A stretch of DNA of 64,000 nucleotides. It comes from Arenimonas caeni (lineage in GTDB: Bacteria; Pseudomonadota; Gammaproteobacteria; Xanthomonadales; Xanthomonadaceae). Position 1 is the first letter of the stretch; each line of letters starts with the position of its first letter. Both the position numbers and the translations under genes were made by a program. The stretch spans positions 1 through 64,000 of the forward strand of contig NZ_KZ679090.1 in assembly GCF_003024235.1 (NCBI RefSeq). The letters are read 5' to 3'. Positions 48,378 to 64,000 of this stretch are shown one piece after another. Below the pieces are notes generated by a model, which did not search any database, was not told the DNA's origin, and saw only the letters and a program-made list of their open reading frames with translations.

Positions 48378-48453
48378 GGGCCTATAGCTCAATGGTTAGA
48401 GCACGGGACTCATAATCCCTTGGTTCCAGGTTCGAGTCCTGGTGGGCCCACCA
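48378..48453 (+). tRNA. tRNA-Ile2 (anticodon CAU)
   Basis: This 76-nt cloverleaf has an encoded CCA. The acceptor GGGCCTA pairs with TGGGCCC, D-stem GCTC with GAGC, and T-stem CCAGG with CCTGG. The anticodon CAT is at 48411-48413. The CTCATAATC...CTTGG context resembles the lysidine-modified isoleucine tRNA that reads AUA rather than the methionine tRNAs. The anticodon stem has a C-T mismatch at its outer pair. The gene is the likely integration site of the element that follows. Confidence 0.85.
48430..48453 (+). other. Probable left attachment site (tRNA 3' end)
   Basis: P4-type integrases usually recombine within the T-arm to CCA end of a tRNA gene and leave a direct repeat at the other boundary. 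The tRNA is intact and the integrase begins 177 bp downstream. No second copy of this 3' end was seen up to 64000, so the right junction is outside the window and the core limits are unknown. Confidence 0.5.
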
Positions 48454-48566: not shown

Positions 48567-48629
48567 GTGAGTCACCCTGTGAGTCATCTGGGGATCGCCT
48601 CCGGCCTGACTCACACCTTTCTGACTCAC
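48567..48629. promoter_or_regulatory. Four copies of the octamer GTGAGTCA before the integrase
   Basis: Two direct copies of GTGAGTCA (48567-48574, 48579-48586) are followed by two copies in the opposite orientation (TGACTCAC at 48607-48614 and 48622-48629). The last copy abuts the integrase ATG. A pair of imperfect 20-bp repeats (48468-48487 and 48541-48560, both GGTGTCCA...TCCACG) lies upstream. These resemble arm-type integrase sites or an autoregulatory operator. Confidence 0.6.
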
Positions 48630-49829
48630 ATGCTCACAGACACCAAGATTCGAGCCCAAAAGCCGCGGGATCGCGCCTACCGGATCGCGGATACCAACGG
48701 TCTCTGCATCGAGGTCCGTCCCAGCGGCGCCAAGGCGTGGCGCTATCGCTACCGGCACGACGGCCAGGCCAGCATGATCACGCTGGGCGAGTACCCGGCC
48801 ATGGGGCTGGCCGCCGCCCGTGCGGAGCGGGACCGATTGCGGGCCTTGGTGCGGTCGGGTGCCAACCCGGCGCACGTGGCCCGCATCGAGCGCGCGGCCA
48901 AGGCCGAGCAGGCGGCCACGACCTTCGGTGCCGTTGGTCTGGAGTTGCTCGAGAAGCGCGCGAAGGAGGGGCTCAGCCCGCAGTCCGTGAAGCGCGAGCG
49001 CCGGTTGATCGAGAAGGACATGGCCAGCATCCGCGACCTTCCAATCGCGGAAGTCACTGCGCCGCTCTTGCTGGAGGCCCTGCGCAAGCTGGAGCGGCGA
49101 GGGGTGGTGGAGACGGCTCACCGTGCCCGCGCGCACTCGGGGCGGGTATTCCGCTATGCCATTGCCACCGGCCGGGCTGAGCGGAACCCGGCAGCGGACC
49201 TGGCGGGTGCCCTGGAGCAGCCGAGGACTACCCACCTGGCCGCCCTCACGGAGCCCGCCAAGATTGCTGGGCTCCTGCGGGCCATCAACGCCTACCAAGG
49301 CTCGCCCGTCACCACTGCCGCCCTGAAGCTGGCTCCGCTCTTCTTCGTGCGCCCGGGCGAGCTTCGGAGCGCCCGGTGGGCCGACATCGACCTGGAGGCC
49401 GCGGAGTGGCGCTACACGGCCTCCAAGACCAAGACCCCGCACATCGTCCCGCTGGCCACCCAGGCGATTGCCATCCTCCGGGAGCTCCGGCCGCTGACCC
49501 AGCGGAGCCTGTACGTCTTCCCTAGCGTCCGTGGCGCCTCCCGCCCGATGAGCGAAAACACCATCAACGTGGCCCTGCGGACCATGGGATACGACGGCAG
49601 TGTCATGACCGGGCACGGATTCCGGGCGATGGCCCGTACCGTGCTGGACGAGGTGCTTGGGTTCCGGCCGGACTTCATCGAGCACCAGCTGGCGCATGCG
49701 GTTCGGGACCCGCTCGGGCGGGCATACAACCGTACTGCGCACTTGCCGGAGCGAAAGAAGATGATGCAGGCGTGGGCAGACTATCTGGACAGCCTCGCAA
49801 GAGATTCATTCCGGGCGGCAAGGGGCTGA
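48630..49829 (+). CDS. P4-type tyrosine site-specific integrase
   Basis: This 399-residue integrase has an N-terminal Arm-DNA-binding domain (MLTDTKIRAQKPRDRAYRIA, then TLGEYPAMGLAAARAERD). The central SAM-like domain spans about 100-200. The catalytic set is R241 in FVRPGELRSARW, a Lys in ASKTKTPHIVPL, H329 and R332 in HGFR, H356 in LAH, and nucleophile Y366 in GRAYNRTAH. The ATG at 48630 matches the family's usual start; a GTG at 48567 would add 21 residues made of the octamer repeats. It catalyses insertion at, and excision from, the tRNA. The window's mobile-element genes all lie downstream. Confidence 0.96.
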   Translation: MLTDTKIRAQKPRDRAYRIADTNGLCIEVRPSGAKAWRYRYRHDGQASMITLGEYPAMGLAAARAERDRLRALVRSGANPAHVARIERAAKAEQAATTFGAVGLELLEKRAKEGLSPQSVKRERRLIEKDMASIRDLPIAEVTAPLLLEALRKLERRGVVETAHRARAHSGRVFRYAIATGRAERNPAADLAGALEQPRTTHLAALTEPAKIAGLLRAINAYQGSPVTTAALKLAPLFFVRPGELRSARWADIDLEAAEWRYTASKTKTPHIVPLATQAIAILRELRPLTQRSLYVFPSVRGASRPMSENTINVALRTMGYDGSVMTGHGFRAMARTVLDEVLGFRPDFIEHQLAHAVRDPLGRAYNRTAHLPERKKMMQAWADYLDSLARDSFRAARG

Positions 49830-49943: not shown

Positions 49944-51167
49944 CTATTCGGTTGTCTGTAGGATGAGGGCATGGTCAGCGAAGCCACGAACATTCATTAA
50001 CCAGATGCGCTGGCTATCGTTGTAGGTGCCGTGCAATGCACTGGGAACTACCAGCTGCAGCTTTTTTGCTTTCATTTCGTTTGTTTGGTTTGGGCTTATT
50101 GCTGCCTCAAGCGTGAGTAGGTGCTTGGTGCTAATGCGATCAGCCTCTGCAAGAGCTTGGCGCCATCTGTCCTTGCACGTGCTCTTGACGGCAAGCATTG
50201 AGAGGCGTGACTCGTCAAAGCTCGGATCGTGATAAGCCGTCTCTCCGGGGAAAAGAAAGTCGGGCCTCGATTTGTTCTCTGTGAAACCGCCCCGCTTGTG
50301 CTTCACTCCCAGTGAGTCAAAGACCACTTCAAGGTGATTCTCAAGCGCATAGCCAACCCTGCTCTTGCGGCGATTCTGCACCGACAGCGAGAACGAGACA
50401 AAATCGTCAATGCTGTCAGCAGCGAACCCTTTCGAGAGGCGCTCGGCGATGAGGTGACGCTCAAGGGTTCGGAACAGTATCTCCTCACGCTCCATCCATG
50501 CCATCAAGGCAGCGTCGGCATCCTCTCGCGGATCGACACCGGCCAATGTCTCGCGTGCAAACGCAGAGAATTCGGTCGTCTTGGGAAATTTGCCACCAAA
50601 GCGCGAGAGCATAGTGTCAAGGAGCGTCTCTTCCTTGTGGGTTACAGCAACGCCGATACTCTCAAGGATGAAAGTGGCTGCGAACCCGACGCGATCCTGC
50701 TCGTTCTCAAGCTCCGCCCTGACCGAGAATTTTGGATACGTGTCTTCCGAGAACCCGAAGAGCCACTCAAGCTGGCTGGCGGCGCTGGATCCGTCTTCTG
50801 CGATTATGACGAGCAAACCGCCGTCACGTCGCTTGGCAATCAGCAGCAGATCGCCTTGGCTAGCGAGCTGGGAAACTCGGGTTGTCGGGAAGTAAAAGCG
50901 ATATTCCGCAGAGCGGCCGGCTTGGTTCTCCCGGCTGTCGTAAAGGGTGAGAAAAGCATCCTCAAACACCGGTTCATCGTCCTCATCGCTGAGGTAGATA
51001 AAGCGTGTATCAAGGCGGGTTGCTTCGGACGGCCTGCCAAGAAATGCGAGCATTTCCCTGGTTGCGTTGTACTCGTGCTGGTTGGATCGTGTCTGGTCGG
51101 CCTCAACAGCAGAGAGTCTCTTGATGGCGACTCCTTCAAAGTACTCGGACAGATAGCCGCGCTTCAT
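49944..51167 (-). CDS. EcoRII-like type IIE restriction endonuclease
   Basis: This 407-residue protein is close to the EcoRII length (about 404). The C-terminal nuclease domain contains SRVGYALENHLEVVFDSLG, TENKSRPDFLFPGETAY and LAVKSTCKDRWRQALAEA. Candidate catalytic residues D303, K328, K332 and E341 have exactly the spacing I recall for EcoRII (D299, K324, K328, E337). The N-terminal half (AIKRLSA near residues 14-20) looks like a diverged B3-like effector domain. It is expected to cut unmethylated CCWGG-type sites when a second site is bound. Its start overlaps the vsr stop (ATGA). GC content is visibly lower than the chromosome. Confidence 0.9.
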   Translation of the reverse strand: MKRGYLSEYFEGVAIKRLSAVEADQTRSNQHEYNATREMLAFLGRPSEATRLDTRFIYLSDEDDEPVFEDAFLTLYDSRENQAGRSAEYRFYFPTTRVSQLASQGDLLLIAKRRDGGLLVIIAEDGSSAASQLEWLFGFSEDTYPKFSVRAELENEQDRVGFAATFILESIGVAVTHKEETLLDTMLSRFGGKFPKTTEFSAFARETLAGVDPREDADAALMAWMEREEILFRTLERHLIAERLSKGFAADSIDDFVSFSLSVQNRRKSRVGYALENHLEVVFDSLGVKHKRGGFTENKSRPDFLFPGETAYHDPSFDESRLSMLAVKSTCKDRWRQALAEADRISTKHLLTLEAAISPNQTNEMKAKKLQLVVPSALHGTYNDSQRIWLMNVRGFADHALILQTTE

Positions 51168-51610
51168 TCCCGTATCTCGATGCTTTCAGAGGACGATGCG
51201 ATCCACTCTGCCAACCGGTCGGCTACGGCGTCAACGTCAGCCCCTTTTCGCCGCAAGGCGCATTCCCAGATGATGCCAACGCGCCACCCTGCTGCCGACA
51301 GCAGGGCGGCGTTCCTCTGATCATTTGCCCGGTTTCTATCTATCTTCGTGCGCCAGAACTCCGTGCGGGTCCCGGGAGTCTTGAAGAATCGACAGTTGTG
51401 CCCGTGCCAGAAGCAGCCATGGACAAACAGCGCTACCCGATATCGTGGCAGCAGGATGTCGGGCCGCCCGGGGAGTGTGCCGGTGTGGAGCCGGTACCTG
51501 AAGCCGCGGGAGTGCAGAGCCTTTCTGACAAGGATCTCGGGTCTTGTGTCCTTGGCCCGGATCCCGGACATCATCCGGCTCCGGGTTGCAGGCGATACCA
51601 CATCAGCCAT
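51164..51610 (-). CDS. vsr: Very short patch repair endonuclease Vsr
   Basis: This 148-residue nuclease shows the Vsr landmarks at the same numbers as the E. coli enzyme as I recall it: M14 region (SRMMSGIRAKDTRPE), catalytic D51 (LPGRPDILLP), W68-H69 (CFWHGHNC) and W86 (TEFWRT). The C-terminus is GWRVGIIWECAL. It nicks at T:G mismatches produced by deamination of 5-methylcytosine in the methylase's target. It lies 7 bp after the methyltransferase gene and overlaps the endonuclease gene. Confidence 0.95.
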   Translation of the reverse strand: MADVVSPATRSRMMSGIRAKDTRPEILVRKALHSRGFRYRLHTGTLPGRPDILLPRYRVALFVHGCFWHGHNCRFFKTPGTRTEFWRTKIDRNRANDQRNAALLSAAGWRVGIIWECALRRKGADVDAVADRLAEWIASSSESIEIRE

Positions 51611-51617
51611 CAGGGGC

Positions 51618-52877
51618 TCAGGCAGCCGACATCAGTCGAGGCTGGATGACGCCGCCTTCCTCCCGGGCCTTCAGCTCGACGATTCTGGGCGCCATGATGC
51701 GGGCTACCGCCTCCATTACATCCACCACCACGCTGTTTCCGAACTGCTTGTATGCCTGAGTGTCGCTGACAACAATCTTGAAGGAGTCAGGGAACCCCAT
51801 CAGGCGTGCACACTCACGGGGCGTGAGGCGCCGTGGCCGCTTCCCCTTGCCCCTGTGGATGAGAATTTCGCTGCCGTCCTTGTAGTAGCGGGCAGACAGG
51901 GTGCGAGTGTGCCGGTCAATTCCCGGCCTCACCAGTCCAAAACCAAATCCGTTGCCGGCCGCCTGGTGCTTCGCTGCGTAGTCCTGCAGGTAGGTCCACA
52001 TGTTGGCGGTCAGAACGTATTTTGGATTCACCTTCGCCTGCGGTCCGGAGGTGTAGTGGCTCTCTGCCGCTTCGCTTCCGTCTTCCGGGTGAAGAATGCT
52101 CGTGATATCCGGGCCCTGTTCAGGGAGCAGCAGGTCGTCCCAGGTGAAGTCCGTGTCCTCCCGAAAGCCGACGATCAGGATTCGCTCACGGTGCTGCGGA
52201 ACGAAATACTTGCCATCGATGACGCGATGAAAGACTCGGTAGCCAAGCTTGTTCTCAAGGACATCCTTGATGACGCGGAAGGTGTTGCCCTTGTCGTGAC
52301 TAACGAGGTTCTTCACGTTCTCAAGCAGAAAAGCCTTCGGTCGCTTGGCCGCAATTATCCGCTCAATGTCGAAGAACAGCGTGCCCTGTGTCGAGCACTC
52401 GAACCCATGGGGTCGGCCAAGCGCATTCTTCTTGCTCACGCCTGCGATGGAGAACGGCTGGCAGGGGAAGCCGGCAAGCAGCACGTCGTGATCCGGGACG
52501 TCGTGCGCATCCACTTTGGTGATATCGCCGTTGAACGGGTGGTCGTCGCCAAAGTTCGATTGATAGGTCTTCTTTGACCACTCGTTCCATTCGCTTGTGA
52601 ATACGCACCGGCCGCCGGCGCGCTCGAAGCCCAGGCGGATGCCTCCGATACCCGCGAACAGGTCGATGAAGCTGAACTTCTGGCCGGGTGCGTCGCTGGA
52701 CTTGTCCATTCTGAGAATCTCTCTTAAGGCGGGGATGACCATCTGCGGGCATCGACTCAGGCCGCGCTCCCATCTGGAGATGGTCTTGGTGGTTGTCCCC
52801 AGGCGGTCTGCCAGCGTCTGCTGCGTTAGAAGCTCCCGGGCCCGTCGAAGAAGGTCCAGTGACTCAGATCCAGACAT
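51618..52877 (-). CDS. C5-cytosine DNA methyltransferase (Dcm/M.EcoRII family) with N-terminal HTH
   Basis: This 419-residue protein has an XRE-like HTH at about residues 18-40 ([20 protein letters not shown]). The C5 methylase core has FAGIGG 74-79, catalytic C139 in [14 protein letters not shown] 186-188, QHRER 228-232 and GNSV 380-383. The target-recognition part ([36 protein letters not shown]) strongly resembles E. coli Dcm, so CCWGG is the likely target. The HTH is of the type used by M.SsoII-like enzymes for autoregulation, and a matching operator lies 26 nt upstream. It is the first gene of the methylase-vsr-endonuclease operon. Confidence 0.95.
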
Positions 52878-52915: not shown

Positions 52916-53178
52916 GACAGCATTCCCAGGGTCAACATGCAGAAGTCTTGGCTCGGGTGTCCCGAGCCACAAGGCGAGGACGTCCCCGTGCAGCGTAAGA
53001 ATTTCTCTCGCTCCGGTCTCACCGCCCGAGACGGCCGCGAACTAGCCTCGATCCCGGCCTCAGGGCAAGCTAGCGCAGCCGGCCGGAATGACGAACAGGG
53101 AGAGGTGCGAACCGCGATGCAGCAGGGGAAGGCCGGATCAGAAGCCGCCATCGTGCCGTCCGCGGAGGGAGTGGGGTG

Positions 53179-55065
53179 ATGCCCCGAGCCGTCAGCATTG
53201 AGCTGAGAGGCCGGGTCCTGGTTCTGGTTGGCCACGACGGCGTAGAGACCGTGCCGGGCGTTGATGAGGCCTACAGGCTCCTCGTCGAGGCATTGCCGGC
53301 GGCGGGTAGCCATGCCGTCATCCGTCCGCCGGAGCTGGTGGCGTCCCGCTACCCCCTGGTTCCAGGACTGGTCCTGGACCTTAACGAGAACGGCACTCCG
53401 GTTGTTCAGCTTGTCGGACGTAGCCGTGGGCGCACCGAATCGCTAACGACTGAGGACTTGCGCCGCGGGCATGTCGTCGTAGCCGGCACGTGGTTTCCGA
53501 TCGAAGCTGCCAGTTCGCATGAGGTCCTCGGTCTGCTGGAGCGTGCCGGCGCCGAACCGGGTCCCGTCTGTTCCCTTCCTGCGTTCCTGGGGATCCGGAA
53601 GGCTGGTGGCCCGGTAGAGGACATGATTGGCGACCGTGCTGTATCACCGCTCGCCTTCCTTCCACCGGAGAACGATGCGCCCAATGTCAGCGCCACGCTG
53701 TATCCGTATCAGCTGACAGGATGGCGCTGGCTTCGTTTTATCCGGTCCGAAGGCTTGGGCGGCCTGCTCGCAGACGAGATGGGCCTTGGCAAGACCCTTC
53801 AGGTCATCAGCGTCATCAGCGATCTGGTCCCTGATGTGTCCGGTCCGTGCCTCATCGTTGCCCCCGGCTCGCTTCTAGAAAACTGGAGAAGGGAGATCGC
53901 CCGGTTCGCTCCCGATCTGCGGGTCCTCAAGCATCACGGTCCCCGTCGGACCGGGCGACCTGCAGACATGCGTGAATTCGATGTGGTTGTGACCTCTTAC
54001 GACAATGTCGTCAGGGACAACAGTCTGTTGAGCATGATCCGTTGGGAAATGGTTGTTCTCGACGAGGCGCAGTTCATCAGGAATCCGGATGCCCAGCGGA
54101 CGAAGGCAGTCAAGCACCTCCCCCGCAGGGTTGGCCTCGCCGTGACCGGAACCCCAATCGAGAACCGCCTTCTGGATCTCTGGTCAATCGTGGACTTTGT
54201 GCTTCCCGGGCAGCTGGATGAAAGGCGCGAGTTTGAGTCGCGGTATCCCGAGGACGTTCTGGGCGCGCGGCTGCTGGAGGCAAGTGTTTCACCATTCATG
54301 CTCAGAAGGCGGGTAAAGGAGGTGGCTCAGGACCTCCCGCCACGTATCGACATTCCCCAGGTTGTCGAGCTTTCCGACGAAGAGGCATTGGAGTACGACT
54401 ACGTCCGGAAGCAGATCGCCGAAGAGTACGGTGCGGCAGCAACCCTCGTCTCGCTGACGCAGTTGAGAAGGTTCTGTGCACATCCTTCGTTGCTGGATGA
54501 TCTCCCCTGCAGTGCGATGCTCAGTTTCAGCAAGTTCCAGCGGCTGGATGAGATACTTCGGGAGATATTCATCCAAGGAGAGAAGGCGCTGGTCTTTACC
54601 TCCTTCACCAGAATGGCCGACATGGTTGCGATGCACGTCAGCAAGACCGTTGGCTGCTACTCAGCCGTGATCGATGGAAGGCTGCCAATAGACGACAGAC
54701 AACCGCTCATCGACACCTTCTCCGGTGTGGCAGGTCCAGCGGTGCTGGTGCTTAATCCGCGAGCCGGCGGGGCCGGTCTGAACATTACGGCAGCAAATCA
54801 TGTCATTCACTACAACCCTGAGTGGAACCCGGCACTTGAGGATCAGGCGTCCGCGCGCGCGCACAGGCGCGGTCAGGAGCTGCCGGTTACCGTGCACAGG
54901 CTTCTAGTAGCGGATACGGTTGAGGACGTTATCAACGAGCGCCTGGAAAGGAAGCGTGCGATTGCTTCCTCTGCAATCGTCGGTGTCGCCGGAAGCGATG
55001 ATGACTATGCTGACATCATCAGCGCGCTTAGCCGATCGCCATCAAGGAAAGGAAAGAGCGGCTGA
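53179..55065 (+). CDS. SNF2-family helicase/translocase of the defence module
   Basis: This protein is 628 residues from the ATG at 53179; a GTG one codon upstream is possible, and GGAGG lies at about 53163. The N-terminal 170 residues are a domain I do not recognise. The SNF2 core then follows: Q-like LYPYQLTGWRWLRFI, motif I DEMGLGKT 199-206, motif II DEAQ 295-298, motif III TGTPIEN 323-329, and in the second lobe VLNPRAGGAGLNITAANHVI and QASARAHRRGQ 556-566. It is an ATP-driven double-strand DNA translocase of Rad54/RapA style. Its stop overlaps the start of the EcoRII-N gene (TGATG), making a four-gene operon. It may remodel or track along invading DNA (inference). Confidence 0.93.
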   Translation: MPRAVSIELRGRVLVLVGHDGVETVPGVDEAYRLLVEALPAAGSHAVIRPPELVASRYPLVPGLVLDLNENGTPVVQLVGRSRGRTESLTTEDLRRGHVVVAGTWFPIEAASSHEVLGLLERAGAEPGPVCSLPAFLGIRKAGGPVEDMIGDRAVSPLAFLPPENDAPNVSATLYPYQLTGWRWLRFIRSEGLGGLLADEMGLGKTLQVISVISDLVPDVSGPCLIVAPGSLLENWRREIARFAPDLRVLKHHGPRRTGRPADMREFDVVVTSYDNVVRDNSLLSMIRWEMVVLDEAQFIRNPDAQRTKAVKHLPRRVGLAVTGTPIENRLLDLWSIVDFVLPGQLDERREFESRYPEDVLGARLLEASVSPFMLRRRVKEVAQDLPPRIDIPQVVELSDEEALEYDYVRKQIAEEYGAAATLVSLTQLRRFCAHPSLLDDLPCSAMLSFSKFQRLDEILREIFIQGEKALVFTSFTRMADMVAMHVSKTVGCYSAVIDGRLPIDDRQPLIDTFSGVAGPAVLVLNPRAGGAGLNITAANHVIHYNPEWNPALEDQASARAHRRGQELPVTVHRLLVADTVEDVINERLERKRAIASSAIVGVAGSDDDYADIISALSRSPSRKGKSG

Positions 55066-55484
55066 TGCAGAGAAGGATTGCCAAGATACTGAGCGCAAAC
55101 GATACGGGTGAAACCGGCGGTCATCAGGCCGGAATTCTTGTTCCAAAAGAGGAAAGTGTGCTGTCGTTCTTTCCTCCTCTCGATGAGTCGATCCAGAATC
55201 CGCGCTGCCATCTCAGGTTTCTGGATGGTGCGGGAACCTTCTGGGAGTTCGCCTTCATCTACTACAACAACAGGCTGTATGGCGGAACCAGGAACGAGTA
55301 CAGGCTCACCCGGATGACGAAGTTCATCCGGCAAGCGGGGCTTGTGCAGGGAGATGAGCTCCTTCTCACCCGGGAGGGTTCACGCTACTGCGTGGATTAC
55401 AGACGGAAGAGGGCTGCGTCGTCCGGCGCGGCCGGCGTGCTCAAGCTTGGAACAGGCTGGCGCGTAGTCGAAATCAATAGGTAA
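55065..55484 (+). CDS. Stand-alone EcoRII-N (B3-like) DNA-recognition protein
   Basis: This 139-residue protein consists almost only of a domain matching the N-terminal effector domain of the restriction enzyme EcoRII, judged by recalled sequence: SANDTGETGGHQ (residues 10-21), FFPPLDESIQNP (35-46) and IYYNNRLYGGTRNEYRLTR (65-83). In EcoRII this B3-like fold binds CCWGG as an allosteric site. No nuclease domain is attached. It is coupled to the SNF2 gene and lies 16 bp before the GHKL gene. It probably supplies sequence specificity to the helicase/ATPase/nuclease module (inference). Confidence 0.85.
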   Translation: MQRRIAKILSANDTGETGGHQAGILVPKEESVLSFFPPLDESIQNPRCHLRFLDGAGTFWEFAFIYYNNRLYGGTRNEYRLTRMTKFIRQAGLVQGDELLLTREGSRYCVDYRRKRAASSGAAGVLKLGTGWRVVEINR

Positions 55485-55500
55485 AAAGAGGAACTGAACG

Positions 55501-57108
55501 ATGACTTTTGAAGAATTCGAGCTGCCGCCGGATCCGGAGCGGGTTATCGTTGGCTTGCGGGATACCGGCTACGAGTTCGAAACTGCAGTAGCCGACATTG
55601 TCGACAACTCCATTGCGGCGAATGCACGCCGCGTTGACCTGTGGCTCGGTGCCGACCATCGCGGAAACATCCGGCTGGCAATCGTCGACGACGGCGACGG
55701 AATGGACAGGGATGGGCTGATCAACGCCATGCAGTACGGGTCGAAGGCTCGCCCGAGTGCGGCAAGTCTCGGAAAGTACGGCCTCGGGCTCAAGACGGCT
55801 TCCACTGCTTTCTGCAAGAGGCTTTCAGTGGTCTCTAGGCCGGACGGGAATACGCCTGCCTTGATGGCAACGTGGGATCTGATGCATGTTGCGCGCGCGC
55901 GAAAGTGGGCTCTGCTCCTAAGCGCAGAGTGTGATCGGGAGGCGATGGACTATCTTGAGGAAGTTGCCCCCGGGCATTCGGGAACCGTTGTCCTGTGGGA
56001 TGAGGTTGATCGCCTCATCAAGGACTACCAGAACAAGACCGGCACCCATGCAAGAAAGGCACTTCAAGCCAGGGAGGCTTCGCTAAGAAGCCATCTCGCG
56101 ATGGTTTACCAGCGGTTTCTTGACTCCGGCGATGATCGCGCCAGGAACGTAGAGATCCGGCTGAACGGCGCCCGCGTCGAGGCGTGGGATCCATTTCAGC
56201 GGCAGGTTTCTGAGCTGGTAGCTGAGGAAGTCATGAGGTCCGAACTGCCTGACGGGACAGAGGCCGAGTTCACTGTCCGCGCCTACATCCTGCCCAGGCG
56301 CGAGGAATTCCCGAATGACCAGATGGCCCAAGCAGCCATGCTGTCCAACGACAAGCAGGGCATCTACATCTACCGGGAAAGCCGCCTGATTCACGATGCT
56401 GACTGGCTTGGCCTGTACCAGAAAGAGCCCCACTCAACACTGCTGCGCGTCGAGTTCTCCTTCGATCACAAGCTCGATGATGCATTCCATCTGGACATCA
56501 AGAAGTCGCAGATCATTCTTAATGATGATCTGGCCGACTGGCTCAAGTCCCAGTTCCTGCCGGCGCCGCGTCGAGAGGCAAACAACCGGTCGCGAGAGGG
56601 TCAGCAGAGGAGGATTGCGCAGCAGGGGCAGGGCGCGCATGACGTATCCAACAATACGATCCGCAACCGTCAGGCTGCTGCGGCAGGAGTAAAGGTCGAC
56701 GCCGTAGACGTAGATCGGGGAGAGGCAGAAATAACCAACCGCCACGGGACCTTCAGGCTCCGGATCCCGCTCGCAACTGCAAGGCGGCCCGGCGAGGTCT
56801 TTGTTCAGCCGCAAGACGGGATCACGAATGGTCTGCTGTTCCAGCCAGCGCTGATTGACAAACATCGAGCTGTCCAGCTGAACACCAGCCACCCCTACTA
56901 CCACAAGGTTTACGTTCCGAACCTCAACCGTGGTGTGACGCTGCAGGGCCTCGACACCCTCATGTGGGCACTCTGTGTGGCCGAGCTGACAACGGTGCAG
57001 GACACTACGGCAAGGATGTTCCAGGACATGCGATACGAGGTTTCCCGGATCCTCGAGCAGCTCGTTGAATCGCTCCCTGAGCCCGAGACGGACCAGAATG
57101 GCAATTGA
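55501..57108 (+). CDS. MORC/MutL-like GHKL ATPase of the defence module
   Basis: This 535-residue GHKL-family ATPase has the N-box ADIVDNSIAANA (D32, D35-N36), motif II DDGDGM 63-68 and a glycine-rich lid GKYGLGLKTAS 91-101. A second region around 330-365 (LRVEFSFDHKLDDAFHLDIK then KSQIILND) has the S5-like transducer typical of MutL/MORC/Hsp90 clamps; the lysine probably contacts ATP. A basic linker (ANNRSREGQQRRIAQQGQG) and a C-terminal helical part follow. It lacks a histidine-kinase domain. It likely forms an ATP-gated DNA clamp. The C-terminus overlaps the HNH gene by 11 bp. Confidence 0.9.
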   Translation: MTFEEFELPPDPERVIVGLRDTGYEFETAVADIVDNSIAANARRVDLWLGADHRGNIRLAIVDDGDGMDRDGLINAMQYGSKARPSAASLGKYGLGLKTASTAFCKRLSVVSRPDGNTPALMATWDLMHVARARKWALLLSAECDREAMDYLEEVAPGHSGTVVLWDEVDRLIKDYQNKTGTHARKALQAREASLRSHLAMVYQRFLDSGDDRARNVEIRLNGARVEAWDPFQRQVSELVAEEVMRSELPDGTEAEFTVRAYILPRREEFPNDQMAQAAMLSNDKQGIYIYRESRLIHDADWLGLYQKEPHSTLLRVEFSFDHKLDDAFHLDIKKSQIILNDDLADWLKSQFLPAPRREANNRSREGQQRRIAQQGQGAHDVSNNTIRNRQAAAAGVKVDAVDVDRGEAEITNRHGTFRLRIPLATARRPGEVFVQPQDGITNGLLFQPALIDKHRAVQLNTSHPYYHKVYVPNLNRGVTLQGLDTLMWALCVAELTTVQDTTARMFQDMRYEVSRILEQLVESLPEPETDQNGN

Positions 57109-57991
57109 CCCCGGACGCCTGGCAGCCCGTATCTCGTCTGAGTGCGGTTTGGAGTTTGTTGGCTCAGGCAGTCGTGCAGGCGACTCCGGTCAGAGGCTCG
57201 TTCTCCAGCCGGCACACCATCCTCCCGCTCATGCTTTTGCTCTCGTCGTTGAAGTCGGATGGCGAAGTGTCGAGATAGCTTTCAGTCCGGGGAGTTTCGC
57301 CAGTGGCCTCCTCGAGGCAATGGGTGATGCAGAGGAGGCTGGCCGGGCGGCATTCGTATCGGTCCTGCGGACCAGCATCGAGGATGGCGCTGAGGTAGGG
57401 TTTGTCCTGAACGGGGCGACGAGCTCATTCGATGATCCGGCCATCTGGCGAGCGCGGTGGCAAAGGGTCACCCTCACGATGCGGAAGGGAATGCTCCCGC
57501 TCGATTTTTCAGCGAGTGAGCATGATGCCGAGCTTGTTGGAAAGTGGGTTTGCCGGATGTCCGCGGCGATTCTCGCCTTGCTGCCGGTTGAATCCGATGA
57601 ATCTCTGGACCTGCGCAATCCCGAGGAGTCTGTGGCTGGGCTCCCGGAGGGATCAAGGCTGCGGGTCGAAGTGAATCGATACGAGCGCGACCGCAGGAAC
57701 CGAGCCGCAGCACTCGCTATCCATGGCAACAGCTGCATGGCGTGCGGCCTGTCTATGGGGGATCGCTATGGCGCTGCAGCGGCGGGTCTGATCGAAGTGC
57801 ATCACACGACGCCTGTCTCTCAAATGGGTGGGAGCTACGTCGTGGATCCGCGAACCGACCTGATTCCACTCTGCCCTAATTGCCATTCCGTCGCGCATCG
57901 CAGGTCACCTCCATTTTCGGTCAATGAGCTGAGGGTCTTGGTTGGCTATGACGCCATCGCCAGAGAGAGCGATAGGGTTGGACGCGAGTAG
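57098..57991 (+). CDS. HNH endonuclease of the defence module
   Basis: This protein is 297 residues from the ATG at 57098; an upstream TTG is possible. The N-terminal 190 residues are unrecognised alpha/beta sequence. The C-terminal HNH domain has zinc pairs C213-C216 (CMACG) and C259-C262 (CPNC), the catalytic HH at 235-236 (LIEVHHTTPVSQ) and DLIPLCPNCHSVAHR. This is the McrA-like form common in restriction enzymes. As last gene of the operon it is the only obvious nuclease, so it is the likely effector that cleaves DNA. Confidence 0.9.
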   Translation: MAIDPGRLAARISSECGLEFVGSGSRAGDSGQRLVLQPAHHPPAHAFALVVEVGWRSVEIAFSPGSFASGLLEAMGDAEEAGRAAFVSVLRTSIEDGAEVGFVLNGATSSFDDPAIWRARWQRVTLTMRKGMLPLDFSASEHDAELVGKWVCRMSAAILALLPVESDESLDLRNPEESVAGLPEGSRLRVEVNRYERDRRNRAAALAIHGNSCMACGLSMGDRYGAAAAGLIEVHHTTPVSQMGGSYVVDPRTDLIPLCPNCHSVAHRRSPPFSVNELRVLVGYDAIARESDRVGRE

Positions 57992-58306: not shown

Positions 58307-59263
58307 ATGCATTTGGTCGAGTCGATGGCGTATACAGGTGCCCGCCCGTGGCACGGACTGGGTGCCAGCCTTGCACCGGACCAGCCGATCGAGGTCTGGC
58401 GACGGCAGGCGGGCATGGAGTGGGAGATCGAAGAAGCCGAGGTCCGGTATGTGGTGGGGCGTGATGGCATCGGGTCCTTGAATGGGTTCCCGGAGCAGAA
58501 GGTTCTCTACCGGTCCGATACCCGGCGGCCGCTGGCTGTGGTTTCGAAGCGTTTCCAGGTGGTCCAGCCCGGCGAGGTCCTCGAGTTCTACCGTGACCTG
58601 ACGGCCCACAGCGGATTCAGGCTCGAGACGGCAGGTGTCCTCAGGGAGGGGCGGAAGTTCTGGGCAATGGCCAGAACCGGCCAGAGCACGAGCCTCAAGG
58701 GCCGCGACAGGGTCGAAGGCTACCTGCTGCTGGCGACAGCCTGCGACGGGACCTTGGCCACGACTGCGCAGTTCACGTCCGTCCGGGTTGTCTGCAACAA
58801 CACCCTTCGGATTGCCCTGGGCAACAGTGCGGGTGCCATCAAGGTGCCGCATCGAAGCCAGTTCGATCCCGAGGTGGTCAAACGCCAGCTGGGCATCACG
58901 GTGTCATCGTGGGACGGGTTCGTGGCCCGCATGAGGGCGCTCTGCGAAGTTCCGGTGGATCCGGACTCGGTTGAGGGCATCCTGCGCCGGGTCCTGACTT
59001 ACCCCAGTCCGGCCGGAGCCGCGCCGGTGGTAAACGAGCAGGCGCTGGCAGGCGTCAGGGCTCTATACGAAGGCGGTGGGCGTGGCTCGCAGCTCGCTTC
59101 GAGCCGCGGGACGGCGTGGGGCCTGCTCAACAGCGTCACCGAGTACGTAGACCACCACCGTCGGGCCCGCAGCGATGACCACCGGCGTGACGCCGCCTGG
59201 TTCGGGCCGGGAGCCCAGATCAAGCAGCGGGCGTGGGACGAGGTCGTGCGTCTGGTCGCCTGA
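58307..59263 (+). CDS. DUF932 phage/plasmid-like protein
   Basis: This 318-residue protein matches the DUF932 family throughout: MAYTGARPWHGLGASL, SKRFQVVQPGEVLEFYRDL, GRKFWAMARTG, GYLLLATACDGTLATTAQFT, RVVCNNTLRIAL and GTAWGLLNSVTEYVDHHRR. Such proteins are found almost only on plasmids, phages and integrative elements, often beside YqaJ exonucleases. The biochemical function is unknown. GGGAGAG lies upstream of the ATG. Confidence 0.92.
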   Translation: MHLVESMAYTGARPWHGLGASLAPDQPIEVWRRQAGMEWEIEEAEVRYVVGRDGIGSLNGFPEQKVLYRSDTRRPLAVVSKRFQVVQPGEVLEFYRDLTAHSGFRLETAGVLREGRKFWAMARTGQSTSLKGRDRVEGYLLLATACDGTLATTAQFTSVRVVCNNTLRIALGNSAGAIKVPHRSQFDPEVVKRQLGITVSSWDGFVARMRALCEVPVDPDSVEGILRRVLTYPSPAGAAPVVNEQALAGVRALYEGGGRGSQLASSRGTAWGLLNSVTEYVDHHRRARSDDHRRDAAWFGPGAQIKQRAWDEVVRLVA

Positions 59264-59284
59264 AGGCGACACCCCAGAAGGGCT

Positions 59285-59659
59285 CTAGGTTGGCGACGGG
59301 CCTGTGGCGCCATCGACCAGCCGGGCCAACGCTTCGGGGTCCTGTATCGCCAGTCGAAGTGCCTCCAGCATCAGCGCCTGCTGCTGGGGGCTGGCTGAGG
59401 CGAGCAGGCGGATGGCTTCCGCCATGCCGGGGCTGTCAGCGAGGAGATAGGCCGGGGGTACATCGAGGGCTTGGGCCAGCGCGTCCAGGCTCTCGAAGCC
59501 GATGGCGGTCACTTGGCGCTCATAGCGGTTGATCCGAACCGAGCCCTTGTCCTTTCCCAGCCCCATGCGGTCACCCAGCGCTCGCTGACTCAGGCCGCGC
59601 AGCTGCCTGGCTTCGGCCAGGCGGGCGGCGAACAGGGAGCGGGCGGACCTCTCGGGCAC
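59285..59659 (-). CDS. XRE-family transcriptional repressor
   Basis: This 124-residue protein has an N-terminal HTH_XRE domain (RLAEARQLRGLSQRALGDRM, INRYERQVTAIGFESLDALA) and a short helical C-terminus. It is convergent with the DUF932 gene and divergent from a membrane-protein gene. A palindrome 61 bp upstream of its start is a likely operator, so it probably represses itself and the rightward genes. Confidence 0.9.
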   Translation of the reverse strand: MPERSARSLFAARLAEARQLRGLSQRALGDRMGLGKDKGSVRINRYERQVTAIGFESLDALAQALDVPPAYLLADSPGMAEAIRLLASASPQQQALMLEALRLAIQDPEALARLVDGATGPSPT

Positions 59660-59719
59660 CGGGAAAGTTTCTCGTTCGGGTGCTCCGAATCATGACGAAA
59701 CCTCTACCGGCGTGGCAGA

Positions 59720-59738
59720 CTCTACGTAGCACGTAGAG
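59720..59738. promoter_or_regulatory. Palindromic operator CTCTACGT-N3-ACGTAGAG
   Basis: Perfect 8-nt arms with a 3-nt centre lie between the divergent XRE gene and the small membrane-protein gene. CTCTAC recurs at about 59702 as a half site. The natural candidate ligand is the neighbouring XRE repressor. Confidence 0.6.
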
Positions 59739-59860
59739 GTCAGTCAAGCCACGTGCTGACCCGAGCGACAGGCCTGCTGCGACTTTCCCGAAACGTCACC
59801 AGGCAGCACCTCCTCAGGGGTGCAGTCGCCAACAAGAAGCAACCAAAACAGGAGCAATGC

Positions 59861-60202
59861 ATGCTGATCTACACCCTGGCCCTGATCTTCATCATCATCC
59901 CCATGACGATTCGGGCCTACCTGAGCCTCAAGGCGGGCAAGCTGCCCCTGCCGAAGTTCCAGAACAACATCGTCGTCAACCAGATCAAGATCCGGAACGC
60001 CCTCGGCGTGATGTACCACGTGCTGTTCTGGGGCTTCCATGTCTTCTTTGCCCTCTGGGCCGTCGAGAAGGAGGCGTGGGGCTCCTTTCTGGCCGTGGTC
60101 GTGTACATGGTGGCCAATCCGATGCTGTCCGCCCAGATCAAGGCGCGTGGCGTCACGGTGCAGCCCGCCAACCCGCCGGGTGGAACCAGCAACGGCAGCT
60201 AA
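59861..60202 (+). CDS. Small three-helix membrane protein
   Basis: This 113-residue protein has hydrophobic segments near residues 3-22 (IYTLALIFIIIPMTIRAYL), 50-68 (VMYHVLFWGFHVFFALWAV) and 75-88 (SFLAVVVYMVANPM). GGAGC lies a few bases before the ATG at 59861. The family is not recognised. It is the first gene rightward of the XRE operator, so probably repressed by it. Confidence 0.75.
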   Translation: MLIYTLALIFIIIPMTIRAYLSLKAGKLPLPKFQNNIVVNQIKIRNALGVMYHVLFWGFHVFFALWAVEKEAWGSFLAVVVYMVANPMLSAQIKARGVTVQPANPPGGTSNGS

Positions 60203-60233
60203 GCCCTCCACCGAGAGAGAACTTCCACGCACG

Positions 60234-60261
60234 GAGAGCCCGGCCAAATGGCCGGGCTCTC
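60234..60261 (+). terminator. Hairpin in the leader of the YqaJ gene
   Basis: A 12-bp perfect stem (GAGAGCCCGGCC with GGCCGGGCTCTC, loop AAAT) is followed by TGCTTTTGG. It ends 19 nt before the next start codon. Placement is the same as in the DUF932 leader. Confidence 0.65.
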
Positions 60262-60280
60262 TGCTTTTGGGGACAAGAAA

Positions 60281-61252
60281 ATGAGCAACGCATCCGCATT
60301 GCGACTGGTCGATACCCGGACCCTGTCGCGCGAACAATGGCTGGAGGTGAGGGCTGGTGGCATCGGAAGCTCGGACGCCGCCGCGGCGGTGGGCCTGTGC
60401 CCGTACAAGAGCCAGCTCGAGCTATGGATGGAGAAGACCGGACGCGCCACGAAGGCTGGCGAGCACCTCGGGCTCGACGACCCTCGGTACTGGGGCACGC
60501 TGCTGGAGCCCTTCGTGGCCAACGCCTACCAGCAGAAGACTGGGCGCAAGGTCCGCAAAGTCAACGCCGTCCTGCAGCATCCGAGCCTGCCTTTCATGCT
60601 GGCCAACATCGACCGCGAGGTGGTCGGCAGCCCCGACGTGCAGATCCTGGAGTGCAAGACCGCCGGCGAGTTCGGCGCGCGTCTCTGGCGGGACGGCGTG
60701 CCCGAGTACGTCCAGCTCCAGGTTCAGCACCAGCTGGCGGTAACGGGCAAGCAGGCGGCGGACGTGGCCGTGCTGCTGTGTGGCCAGACGCTCGAGGTAT
60801 TCCGGATTCCCCGGGACGACGAGGCCATCGCCCGCCTGGTCGTGCTGGAGGCGCGCTTCTGGGAGTACGTCGAGACTGACACGCCCCCGCCGGCTGACGG
60901 CAGTGAGTCCTCGGCCCGAGCACTTCGGAAGCTCTATCCGGGAGGCGGCGACACCGTCGACCTCACGGGCGACCCGGTGCTGGGGCAAGCGCTTGAGGAA
61001 CTGCGCCTGCTCCGGGATGAGCTGGACGCAAAGCAGGCCACGGCCGAGGCCCTCCGGCAGCGCATCCAGCAGGCCATGGGCGACGCATCGCGAGCGGTCC
61101 TCTCCACCGGCGAGGTCAGCTTCAAGCGAGCCAGGGATGGCGTGTCCATCGACACCCGGCAGCTGACCCTCGACCACCCCGAGCTCGTCGCCCGCTACAC
61201 CACCACCCGGCTGGGCGCCCGCCGGTTCCTGATCCTCGACAAACCTACCTGA
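60281..61252 (+). CDS. YqaJ/lambda-exonuclease-family recombinase nuclease
   Basis: This 323-residue protein has the YqaJ fold motifs: REQWLEVRAGGIGSSDAAAA, YWGTLLEPFVANAYQQKTGR (catalytic Glu), ANIDREVVGSPDVQILECKT (D...ExK) and VQLQVQHQLAVTG. The C-terminal third is a coiled helix. It would resect linear double-stranded DNA to give single strands for annealing. It lies directly before a possible partner gene, and such pairs are typical of plasmids and conjugative elements. Confidence 0.92.
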   Translation: MSNASALRLVDTRTLSREQWLEVRAGGIGSSDAAAAVGLCPYKSQLELWMEKTGRATKAGEHLGLDDPRYWGTLLEPFVANAYQQKTGRKVRKVNAVLQHPSLPFMLANIDREVVGSPDVQILECKTAGEFGARLWRDGVPEYVQLQVQHQLAVTGKQAADVAVLLCGQTLEVFRIPRDDEAIARLVVLEARFWEYVETDTPPPADGSESSARALRKLYPGGGDTVDLTGDPVLGQALEELRLLRDELDAKQATAEALRQRIQQAMGDASRAVLSTGEVSFKRARDGVSIDTRQLTLDHPELVARYTTTRLGARRFLILDKPT

Positions 61253-61268
61253 CCCCAGGGAGAACAAC

Positions 61269-62171
61269 ATGCTCAAAGGCTTGGCTATCACGCCGCCCGT
61301 GGTCGGGCGGATCTCGATCGGACGCGTGGTGGAGCGCAATGGCAAGCGCCTGCCGGAGAAGGACGACCAGTTCACCCTCACCAGTCAGGTACAGAACCGC
61401 GAAGGCTGGGTCCTGCACCCGCTGGACGAGCAGCTGCGCAAGGATGCGGGCGGAAAGCTGCGCTCTATCCCCGTCAGGCTGGTCTTCAACGACCCCGAGC
61501 TCAACCTCCGGGCCGACTACACCCTGTTCGACCGCACCACCGGGCGCCCGCAGTGCGTGGGCAACGGCGAGACCTGCCGACGCCGGGGCGGTGCGGAGGG
61601 GGTAGAGACCCTCCCTTGCCCGGGGCCGGACACCTGCAGCTACGCCGCAGGGGCTTGCAAGGCCTACGCCCGGTTCAACGTGCTGGTGGGCGATGGAGAA
61701 GAGGACGCCCTCGGCACCTTCGTGCTCCGTACCACCTCGTTCAACACCATCCGGACGCTGGCGGCTCGCCTGCAGTACTTCAGTGCTGTCTCGGGCGGGC
61801 GCCTCGCCACCATGCCGCTCGAGCTGAAGCTGCGCGGCAAGAGCACCACGCAGAGCCACCGTGCCCCGATCTACTACGTGGACCTGGTGGTCCGGCAGGG
61901 CATCACCCTGGAGCAGGCTATCGCTCAGGCGCGGGTGCGCGACGAGCAGCGCAGGAATGACGGGGTGGACCAGGCCGCGCTCGACGAGGCGGCCCGTCGC
62001 GGCTTCCTGAGCGGTGCCTACGAGGAACTGGAGGAGGACATCCCGGCCGTCGTTGAGGAGTTCTACCCGGAGGCCACCGCGGGCGACGCTTCAGCAGAAC
62101 CTCGGCAGGCGAGCCCCGTGAACCTCACGGGCCGGCTGCAGGAAAAGGTCGCCCGGATCGGGGCGGGATAA
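61269..62171 (+). CDS. Recombination directionality factor-like, Cys-cluster protein
   Basis: This 300-residue protein begins MLKGLAITPPVVGRISIGRV. It contains a possible zinc cluster (CVGNGETCRRRGG, CPGPDTCSYAAGACKAYARF) and FVLRTTSFNTIRTLAARLQY. The pattern resembles mobile-element proteins annotated as hydrolase/metal-binding or phage gp3-like recombination directionality factors. It starts 16 bp after the YqaJ gene. It may instead act with that exonuclease as a DNA-annealing factor. Family placement moderate, function uncertain. Confidence 0.7.
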   Translation: MLKGLAITPPVVGRISIGRVVERNGKRLPEKDDQFTLTSQVQNREGWVLHPLDEQLRKDAGGKLRSIPVRLVFNDPELNLRADYTLFDRTTGRPQCVGNGETCRRRGGAEGVETLPCPGPDTCSYAAGACKAYARFNVLVGDGEEDALGTFVLRTTSFNTIRTLAARLQYFSAVSGGRLATMPLELKLRGKSTTQSHRAPIYYVDLVVRQGITLEQAIAQARVRDEQRRNDGVDQAALDEAARRGFLSGAYEELEEDIPAVVEEFYPEATAGDASAEPRQASPVNLTGRLQEKVARIGAG

Positions 62172-62189
62172 GCAACCAAGGAGAAGGCA

Positions 62190-62387
62190 ATGATGTTTCG
62201 ACTGATTGGCGGCGCCGTGGTCTACGGCTTCGCCCTGTACGGCGTGGCCGCGTTCCTGGACCGCCCGAGGGTGAAGGTGTTCCTCGCCCAGGGCAGGCAG
62301 GGGCGTGGCACCCGCGGAGAAACGCATGAGACGCGCCAGGACGCGTCTTCGGAAGAGTCTGCGACCAGCTCCGCGACCGGCGACTGA
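62190..62387 (+). CDS. Small membrane-anchored protein
   Basis: This 65-residue protein has one N-terminal hydrophobic helix (LIGGAVVYGFALYGVAAFL) and a basic, then Ser/Thr/Glu-rich tail. A purine-rich AAGGAGAAGG precedes the ATG. It follows the previous gene by 18 bp. No family recognised. Confidence 0.6.
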   Translation: MMFRLIGGAVVYGFALYGVAAFLDRPRVKVFLAQGRQGRGTRGETHETRQDASSEESATSSATGD

Positions 62388-62445
62388 CGCGCTCATACAG
62401 GCGCGTGTACAGGCCTGTCAGGGGCCGTGCGATGCATGACACAAC

Positions 62446-62465
62446 AGGGGCGCTTCGGCGCCCCT
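62446..62465 (+). terminator. TTCG-loop hairpin in the leader of radC
   Basis: The 8-bp stem AGGGGCGC/GCGCCCCT with a TTCG tetraloop is followed by TTCTAC and ends 24 nt before the radC start. It is the third such leader hairpin in this module. Confidence 0.6.
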
Positions 62466-62489
62466 TTCTACTCACAGGGAGACAAGCAC

Positions 62490-62993
62490 ATGTCCATTGA
62501 CTGCAACAACCGCACGGCGCTGTTTGTGCGGGGCGGACGCAGCCGTTACTCACCTGCTTCGCCTGAGCAGATCGTGGAGGCGGCACGACGGGTCATCGAC
62601 CAGAGGGTGCCGGCGGGTACACCGTTCAAGGATCCCGAGATTGCCCGGACGTTCTTCCGGGACAAGCTGGCCGGCCTTGAGCGTGAGGTCTTCGCCGCAG
62701 CATTCCTCGACACCCGTCACCGACTGATCGAGTACGTGGAACTGTTCCACGGGACCATCGATGGCGCTGAGGTGCATCCGAGGGAGGTGGTGAAGAAGGC
62801 CATCGCGTGCAATGCGGCTGCGGTGCTGTTCAGTCACAACCATCCGTCGGGGGAAGTGGAGCCGTCGCCTGCTGACCGGGCGGTTACCGCGCGCCTGAAA
62901 CAGGCGCTGGTACTGGTTGATGTCAGGGTACTAGACCACGTCATCGTGGGTGGCAATGACACGCTGAGCATGGCGTCTCGCGGACTTCTTTGA
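62490..62993 (+). CDS. radC: RadC-family JAB/MPN protein
   Basis: This 167-residue protein lacks the N-terminal HhH domain of chromosomal RadC and has the JAB domain with the metal motif SHNHPSGEVEPSPAD, preceded by DTRHRLIEYVELFHGTIDGA and VHPREVVKKAIACNAAAV. This short form is typical of mobile elements. Function is unclear despite the historic repair name; a metal-dependent hydrolase is implied by the motif. Confidence 0.93.
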   Translation: MSIDCNNRTALFVRGGRSRYSPASPEQIVEAARRVIDQRVPAGTPFKDPEIARTFFRDKLAGLEREVFAAAFLDTRHRLIEYVELFHGTIDGAEVHPREVVKKAIACNAAAVLFSHNHPSGEVEPSPADRAVTARLKQALVLVDVRVLDHVIVGGNDTLSMASRGLL

Positions 62994-63012
62994 CTGGTCG
63001 GGAGCCAGTCCT

Positions 63013-63038
63013 CGCATTAGGGGTTCGCCCCTAATGCG
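63013..63038 (+). terminator. Hairpin terminator after radC
   Basis: An 11-bp perfect stem with a TTCG loop lies 20 bp after the radC stop. A run of T residues appears about 20 nt later (63058-63065). The remaining bases to 63258 contain no supported gene. Confidence 0.65.
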
Positions 63039-63258
63039 GGGCGATAGCTGTGGGTACTTTTTTTTCGTTGAAACCATTGGGAGATGCTTTTCTGGGCGGC
63101 TTCATGCACGACACAGCAGCTCACCGTCCTATCCGCCCTAGGGTCGAACACCTCCTTGCAACTCGGCCCTGATGTCGAGCGCGTGCTTCAGGAAGAGGAG
63201 TGTGTTGTCAGTGAACTATCGATCACAGGAGTGAAACCCTGTGTAAAAAAATGGTTCT

Positions 63259-64000
63259 TCACCCAAGTCCGGGGAATGCCGCCCGAATCTTCAGGAAGAA
63301 GTAGGCGTCGTCCCGGTAGCCGTAGGCCACCCGCTTGATGACCTTGATCTTGTTGTTGATGCCTTCGACCAGGTTGGTGCCCAAGGGCCAGCGGCAGTGG
63401 GCCAGGATGCCGGCCAGGTAGGGCTCGATGCGGCGAACGAAGGCCCGCAGTGGCTCCAGCCCACTGCGCAGGGCCCGGCGTTTCCAGCTTTTCCAGGCTT
63501 TCCTGGCCCAGGCTTCGGATCGGTAGTCCCAGAGCGCTTTGAGGTCATCCTTGAGCAGGTAGGTCGTCAACAGCGCCTTGTTGGCCGCCAGCAGTTCCTC
63601 CAGCCGCACGACCTGATCCCGCGGCACGTTTTCACGGTTACGCAGCAGCAGCCAGCGCGACGTCTTCACCACCCGCCGGGCTGGCTTGTCGCCCCTGAGT
63701 CGGTTGGCTTCATCCACCCGCACCCGGTCGATCACCTCGCGGCCGTACTTGGCCACGACGTGGAACAGGTCGTAGACCACCTCGGCGTTCGGGCAGTGCG
63801 CCCGCACTTCCAGGTCAAAAGCCGTGCTCATGTCCATGGCCACGGCCCGGATCTGGGCACAGCGATCAGGACCAAGGAGTTCAAAGAAAGGCCGAATGTC
63901 GGCCCTGGACCGACCCCGCCCCACCCACAGCACCCGCTTGCGCTCGGGATCAACGATCACCGTGGCATAGCGGTGGCCCTTTTGAATGGCGAACTCGTCC
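63259..64000 (-). CDS. ISL3-family (IS204/IS1001-type) transposase, truncated by window end
   Basis: The 247 visible C-terminal residues continue open through base 64000, so the N-terminus lies outside. The DDE domain shows DEFAIQKGHRYATVIVDPER (first Asp), AVAMDMSTAFDLEVRAHCPN (second Asp), VYDLFHVVAKYGREVIDRVR and, near the end, LVEGINNKIKVIKRVAYGYR (Glu). It would mobilise an ISL3 element. The insertion sequence's left end should lie shortly downstream of 63259, but I could not define its inverted repeat with only one side visible. Confidence 0.9.
   Translation of the reverse strand, partial: DEFAIQKGHRYATVIVDPERKRVLWVGRGRSRADIRPFFELLGPDRCAQIRAVAMDMSTAFDLEVRAHCPNAEVVYDLFHVVAKYGREVIDRVRVDEANRLRGDKPARRVVKTSRWLLLRNRENVPRDQVVRLEELLAANKALLTTYLLKDDLKALWDYRSEAWARKAWKSWKRRALRSGLEPLRAFVRRIEPYLAGILAHCRWPLGTNLVEGINNKIKVIKRVAYGYRDDAYFFLKIRAAFPGLG

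Follow-up and report, generated by a model that had tools for sequence, protein, structure and literature searches.

A MORC, SNF2, EcoRII-N and HNH gene cassette in Arenimonas caeni and its Dcm and Vsr companions: a candidate restriction-modification system

What is the function of four tightly packed bacterial genes that encode a SNF2 translocase, a stand-alone DNA sequence reader, a MORC-type ATPase and an HNH nuclease, and where does the unit to which they belong begin and end? The question is raised by a 64,000-nucleotide stretch of Arenimonas caeni DNA (contig NZ_KZ679090.1, positions 1 to 64,000; hereafter the window), for which an initial annotation had proposed that these genes, at 53179–57991, make up a poorly described defence system that has no methylase and lies on a mobile element beside a full restriction-modification (R-M) system. 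The four-gene observation is confirmed here, and its interpretation is partly supported. The four genes are a conserved module, and they belong together with a Dcm-type cytosine methylase and a Vsr endonuclease as one six-gene unit. With moderate confidence, we take this unit to be a multi-subunit, probably ATP-dependent R-M system directed at CCWGG, of which the four genes would be the cutting arm.

Four core genes and their recurrence

The four genes and their spacing are reproduced from the open reading frames (ORFs), and their domain assignments are upheld by Pfam. All four lie on the forward strand. The SWI2/SNF2 translocase (53179..55065) carries SNF2-rel_dom (4.3e-60) and Helicase_C (6.6e-18) domains, with no nuclease domain detected in the Pfam scan; its frame may also open at a GTG at 53176, which gives 629 aa, the ATG at 53179 being the next start. 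It overlaps by 1 bp the gene for the stand-alone reader of EcoRII-N/B3 fold (55065..55484; 139 aa; EcoRII-N 1.8e-17), which is followed after a 16-bp gap by the MORC-family GHKL-S5 ATPase (55501..57108; 535 aa; HATPase_c_3 3.4e-27). This gene in turn overlaps by 11 bp that of the HNH nuclease (57098..57991; HNH 3.4e-6), the ORF of which can open at a TTG at 57065, while in alignments the homologues begin near the position of the ATG at 57098. The active-site residues named in the initial annotation are all present in the window proteins, namely the DEAQ box of SNF2 (residues 296–299), N36 of MORC and H236 of the HNH protein (297-aa numbering). A scan for promoters and terminators returned zero promoter-like sites and one terminator-like site, both counts lying below the means for shuffled sequence.

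Gene sets of this kind had been forecast. Prokaryotic MORCs were assigned to restriction systems by prediction in 2008, and the text sections of that study describe a SNF2 group of MORC operons in which nucleases of the HNH or EcoRII-like type are often encoded and a VP1/RAV domain is at times present, note that MORC neighbourhoods frequently include cytosine methylases and Vsr, and propose for MORC operons a looping between recognition and cleavage sites, together with unwinding (Iyer, Abhiman and Aravind, 2008; PMC2292703). The window locus is a member of this SNF2 group, sharing with it the MORC S5 motif, the SWI2/SNF2 and HNH/EcoRII-like nuclease components, the VP1/RAV(B3) reader and the methylase and Vsr neighbours. 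The connection to these predictions drawn in the initial annotation is thereby borne out, and as a prediction the gene set is not new. That work differs in being computational, and the sections consulted do not state that a CCWGG reader is matched to a methylase. No functional study of the set was found among the openly licensed papers listed in part and judged by title and the start of the abstract.

Does the set recur? All four families occur together in 27 distinct loci, the window included, which bears out the co-occurrence that the initial annotation had proposed to look for. The survey used MORC or EcoRII-N as its only baits, and neither Dcm nor Vsr; its sources were a genome scan, plasmids, IMG/VR and two genome samples, one drawn from the phylum (398 genomes) and one from the class (369). 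The MORC genome scan led to six loci (in Sphingomonas, Polaromonas, Novosphingobium, Nitratireductor, Hahella and Sphingobium), all six with the same order of the four genes, and because this order recurs in distant bacteria the set is not a product of chance. Overall, two core orders are seen, SNF2-reader-MORC-HNH and MORC-HNH-SNF2-reader, and the pairwise divergences of the four core genes correlate with r of 0.95–0.98 (26 loci, as for the further correlations given below). The loci are not phylogenetically independent (examples are the Rhizobium/Agrobacterium loci L009, L010 and L012–L014, the pair L037/L038 and the pair L004/L007), and since they share kinship, permutation counts overstate significance.

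The tally leaves out duplicates (L001, L019, L020, L032 and L048–L050), the short loci L021–L031 (ten with EcoRII-type endonucleases; L030 is the same place as L043), the short loci L051–L055, which were re-examined at larger size as L058–L062, and the yardsticks L046 and L047. For want of one or more core genes, L018, L042–L045, L057 and L058–L062 are likewise uncounted. L057, a 4.1-kb contig, carries MORC, HNH, an EcoRII-type gene and a stand-alone reader, with no Dcm or Vsr within the contig.

The cassette is rare. A stand-alone reader is found in two of the 398 phylum-sample genomes (the window's own and G313); the other 11 reader matches in that sample are longer or split frames, of which ten adjoin or form part of EcoRII-type endonucleases and one belongs to an HNH_2 fusion. 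Full-length MORC of the cassette kind is similarly confined to two of the 369 class-sample genomes (the window's own and G566), with a fragment in G468. The plasmid search with MORC matched 54 records, the best 10 of which were examined, and matches covering at least 80% of the query came from 9 records only. Among the matches listed, 60 of 2525 plasmid EcoRII-N records, nine carry the annotation EcoRII N-terminal effector-binding protein, and these correspond to the nine complete cassettes on plasmids. The search of the phage collection gave only two partial matches, at ~40% identity.

Dcm and Vsr as companions of the core

Divergent to the four genes, and beginning ~300 bp from them, the window carries a reverse-strand trio composed of a Dcm-type C5-cytosine methyltransferase with an N-terminal helix-turn-helix (HTH) (51618..52877; DNA_methylase 3.1e-86), a Vsr mismatch endonuclease (51164..51610; Vsr 1.5e-32, with TIGR00632 above cut-off) and an EcoRII-C type II endonuclease whose N-terminal domain has diverged (49944..51167; EcoRII-C 6.1e-68). 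Which of these belong to the cassette is answered by the survey. Dcm is present in 26 of the 27 four-gene loci, and Vsr likewise in 26, the sole exception being L039, where fragments of MORC and HNH are split and inverted near a contig end. Across these 26 loci, Dcm and Vsr stand in seven arrangements relative to the core: divergent (the window and L008), convergent (L002, L004, L007, L009–L014 and L036), upstream in line (L003, L005, L006, L015 and L033), downstream in line (L056), with Dcm first and Vsr last (L034 and L035), and, with the second core order, as Dcm-Vsr-MORC-HNH-SNF2-EcoRII-N (L016, L037, L038, L040 and L041) or with Dcm turned (L017). Given seven arrangements, the link to Dcm and Vsr is not one inherited layout. 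The clearest locus is L056, in which a single strand carries SNF2, reader, MORC, HNH, Dcm and Vsr in succession, with no EcoRII-type gene in a stretch that ends 1.2 kb past Vsr. Dcm genes of this kind are otherwise uncommon, with 17 matches at E ≤ 1e-60 in 16 of 100 genomes of a phylum sample (the window's own included), and we estimate the chance presence of Dcm within a 20-kb stretch at well under one per cent. The divergence of Vsr follows that of the core (r 0.70–0.78) and that of Dcm (r 0.74).

On the other hand, a gene for an EcoRII-C-type endonuclease is present in 13 of the 27 loci, and within the examined stretch the other 14 have none. Seven of the latter (L008, L016, L034–L037 and L040) span at least 4 kb on each side of the cassette; the stretches of L005, L033, L038, L041 and L056 end 1–3 kb past it on one side, and for L017 4 kb of the plasmid lies outside the scan. 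The cassette does not always include the type II endonuclease, whose presence in 13 loci only rules it out as a necessary part, just as the presence of Dcm in 26 loci rules out a methylase-free system. The absence of a methylase noted in the initial annotation holds for the four genes taken alone, and the border it drew against "a full R-M system" was misplaced. What the survey delimits is a real, coherent and rare cassette, probably of restriction, with a corrected border.

Predicted site and catalytic motifs

The profile of the reader matches the EcoRII structures 3hqf (6e-15) and 1na6 (5e-14), followed by plant B3 proteins, with RAV1 at 1e-4; the Pfam B3 match in the window, at 0.005, lies below cut-off. 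The loops LSANDTG.TGGHQ and TRNE.R are common to the reader and EcoRII. Reader residues K7, S10, N12, D13, H20, Y67, N68, T75, R76, N77, E78 and R80 are identical in all 27 loci, and K7, N12, D13, H20, R76, N77, E78 and R80 also match EcoRII. R76, E78 and R80 of the reader correspond in the alignment to R94, E96 and R98 of EcoRII, residues of the loop with which that enzyme contacts DNA. The window Dcm, for its part, shares 54% identity with E. coli Dcm and 58% with an M.EcoRII-like enzyme, the specificity of this latter yardstick being itself inferred from its neighbour; over the stretch of the target recognition domain (TRD) identity is 49% to each, and the TRD core is shared. Reader and methylase are therefore both likely to be specific for CCWGG, judging from these alignments.

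The type II endonuclease of the window has no EcoRII-N match in Pfam. Aligned with EcoRII-N, its N-terminal domain gives a weak hhalign E of 0.0025 at a probability of 12%, three controls giving E of 0.33–0.44; a stronger value for the whole endonuclease family against the reader (E 7e-8) was set aside because the true EcoRII-N of L002 had biased it, and is weak once L002 is removed. The first 200 residues of the 49944–51167 product (KRLSAVEADQTRSNQHE) could represent EcoRII-N in a strongly diverged form. The same domain is also encoded as a small stand-alone gene (L034:9579–9983 and L018:5312–5656), perhaps a second type of reader.

The S5 motif defined for MORC proteins, GhXhhpXXRhl, is fitted by GIYIYRESRLI at residues 287–297 of the window protein, where G287, Y289, Y291, R292, R295, L296 and I297 are invariant in alignments of 11 and 14 rows. 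The top Protein Data Bank (PDB) match of the profile is MORC2 (3e-10), and a fold search places MORC2 and MORC3 first, at E of about 1e-13, with SMCHD1 close behind; the model used is moderate (pLDDT 70), its C-terminal third being poor. Residues N36, D63, G65, G67, G91, G94, G96 and K98 are identical in all 25 loci in which MORC is readable, L011 and L039 yielding pieces only. At L011:9001–10607, on a Sphingomonas melonis plasmid, MORC is annotated as two pieces, and this copy may be inactive or mis-sequenced.

The other two enzymes are similarly conserved. K206, T207 and the DEAQ box of SNF2 are identical in all 27 loci, and in the HNH protein the two histidines and the four cysteines tested are conserved in 27 of 27, and Glu244 in 25. 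This protein consists of an N-terminal domain (about residues 1–165) followed by a Cys-containing, McrA/TagI-like HNH domain, with profile positions 179–269, the HNH part, matching PDB 6ghc (9.7e-7). Its AF2 model reaches a pLDDT of 86. A fold search with the N-terminal domain gave nothing at E ≤ 0.001, the best match being 2a8e at 2.5e-3, and an SRA-type methyl reader was rejected for this protein, since no such title appears among the best 50 of 407 fold matches. The catalytic motifs are thus kept across the cassette loci.

A putative restriction system and its rivals

How might the six proteins act together? Dcm would methylate CCWGG in the host and so mark self, and the stand-alone EcoRII-N, to judge from its conserved recognition loops, would bind CCWGG in unmethylated incoming DNA. 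From the families to which the next components belong, one would expect the bound DNA to be passed to a dimer of MORC, which would clamp it upon binding ATP, with the SNF2 translocase moving or reeling DNA between sites; the HNH protein, whose site is intact, would then cut. Vsr would repair the T:G mismatches that arise when methylated cytosines deaminate. The site, the use of ATP and the cutting are all read from family membership and conservation. A more specific proposal, to which we give slightly less than even weight, is a restriction type with separated reader, MORC clamp, SNF2 motor and HNH cutter, in which ATP-dependent closure of MORC near unmethylated CCWGG licenses cleavage. A simpler arrangement is seen on the Thauera plasmid pTha01 (L045, 8923–9924) and in genome G321 (L043, 8974–9915), where an EcoRII-N::HNH_2 fusion comes directly after Dcm-Vsr. 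The EcoRII-N part of the former scores 20.4 in Pfam, under the cut-off of 25, and 1.9e-11 with our own profile; the recognition loop of these fusions is altered, and our profiles find no SNF2 or MORC in the scanned stretches. Because a minimal reader and HNH cutter thus exist beside Dcm-Vsr, the four-gene version can be read as an elaborated restriction arm.

Several observations weigh against such a system. The divergence of Dcm follows that of the core only loosely (r 0.34–0.49), so that the methylase has been exchanged, and we read the cassette as a fixed core that occasionally takes on another methylase. In L034 and L035, Dcm has a different TRD, with 28–36% identity to the references, and the HNH protein has His at position 244. 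Within the reader, Gln21 is kept in 24 of 27 loci, with Met in three, and Gly15 in 26, with Ser in one. In L018, on a Vibrio vulnificus plasmid, Dcm accompanies SNF2-MORC, and our own profiles find no Vsr, stand-alone EcoRII-N or HNH. Finally, the Glu of the MORC2 motif AELVDN, presumably the general base, is replaced by Asp (D32) in all 25 readable MORC sequences; if the Glu does have that role, hydrolysis may be slow, as would fit a switch.

Could the four genes instead be a self-contained defence system, a chance neighbour of the R-M genes that spares self by some other cue? They do co-diverge far more tightly with one another than with Dcm, and several loci sit, by annotation, amid other restriction- or defence-like genes. 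Yet Dcm and Vsr are found with all but the broken L039, in varied arrangements, whereas the other annotated neighbours mostly vary from plasmid to plasmid, and we regard chance proximity as improbable. Less probable still is a reading in which the EcoRII-type endonuclease is the true cutter and the four genes assist it. The endonuclease gene adjoins them in the window and is present in nearly half of the loci (13 of 27), but those that lack it within the stretch, seven of them with the wide flanks given above, and the HNH histidines intact throughout tell against this.

About equally doubtful is a dedicated repair machine, in which MORC would be a MutL-like partner of Vsr and SNF2 a helicase, together guarding methylated CCWGG from mutation. 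The near-constant presence of Vsr and the GHKL-S5 fold common to MORC and MutL would suit it, as would L058–L062, in which partial, distant MORC matches lie near a more distant C5-methylase (five of five) and Vsr (four of five), with neither SNF2 nor EcoRII-N present; the association of MORC with cytosine methylase and Vsr extends beyond the cassette. Mismatch repair, however, needs neither a sequence reader nor an HNH cutter, the EcoRII-N::HNH_2 fusions directly after Dcm-Vsr tell against it, and carriage of the cassette is sporadic. Least probable, in our view, is a type IV-like mode of action, in which a McrA/TagI-like HNH would cleave DNA containing methylated cytosine. The best solved relative of the HNH protein, 6ghc, is named 5-methylcytosine-specific restriction enzyme A, and the one PADLOC match of this protein is a type IV model, but both matches are limited to the HNH part, the fold matches just described include no SRA-like title among the best 50, and a cassette that carries a cytosine methylase would cut its own host.

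Among known systems, the putative CCWGG cassette shares with EcoRII R-M (type IIE) the EcoRII-N reader and a Dcm/M.EcoRII-like methylase. EcoRII fuses reader and EcoRII-C nuclease, whereas the cassette reader is separate and linked to SNF2, MORC and HNH. The N-terminal domains of EcoRII are described as having an allosteric effector role, in which they bind additional copies of the site but do not cut (PMC4081073). The L045 and L043 loci likewise combine methylase, Vsr, an EcoRII-N-like reader and an HNH cutter, but with reader and cutter fused. No existing model for the set was found in the libraries scanned (PADLOC-DB 2.0.0 and NCBIfam 20.0): none of the PADLOC matches listed goes beyond domain level for the four genes (ZorD, DpdE, DrmD and others; REase_II; MzaB; type IV), and in NCBIfam nothing scores above cut-off for them. 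The SNF2 motor domain is shared with ZorD of Zorya, DpdE of Dpd and DrmD of DISARM, and ZorD is its best PADLOC match (3e-123 over 171–604). This match, however, spans the motor only, no ZorA or ZorB is among the PADLOC matches listed, and a score of 226 bits against the NCBIfam ZorD cut-off of 1500 rules out membership of Zorya. MORC is homologous over residues 9–373 to the MORC/MutL-like ATPase MzaB of MZA, but its 177.5 bits against the NCBIfam MzaB cut-off of 850 rule out that system too. MzaB has a Z1 gene among its partners, and no Z1 domain is found in the 16 window proteins scanned (ten and six further).

The wider setting is that of a presumed mobile element. A tRNA-Met (48378..48453, forward strand; ARAGORN), the candidate integration site, is followed by a tyrosine integrase (48567..49829, forward strand; Arm-DNA-bind_3, Phage_int_M and Phage_integrase in Pfam), which makes the location on a mobile element given in the initial annotation plausible; a second copy of the tRNA 3' end (48431–48453) was not found with up to 2 mismatches in the 41-contig genome, and no far end of the element was recognised. 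Past the cassette, 58307–63960 encodes DUF932, an HTH regulator, a YqaJ recombinase, a Gp3-like protein, RadC and an ISL3-family transposase, a gene content that resembles integrated plasmid- or phage-like elements. CCWGG occurs 476 times in the window against 228 expected from dinucleotide shuffles, an approximately twofold enrichment, and CCSGG, at 431 against 406, is near expectation. Avoidance of CCWGG is thus not seen in the window, a large part of which lies upstream of the integrase and has little bearing on the element; a CCWGG cutter would then need the methylase.

What would such a system mean for the MORC family? The cassette makes the participation of MORC in restriction testable, as it joins a reader family that is structurally solved and has a known site to an E. 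coli Dcm-like methylase, and as versions free of the type II endonuclease occur in nature. The corrected border matters here, as cloning without the methylase may mislead or be toxic. If the proposal is true, the cassette would parallel in bacteria, at a defined DNA site, the action of eukaryotic MORC proteins on chromatin.

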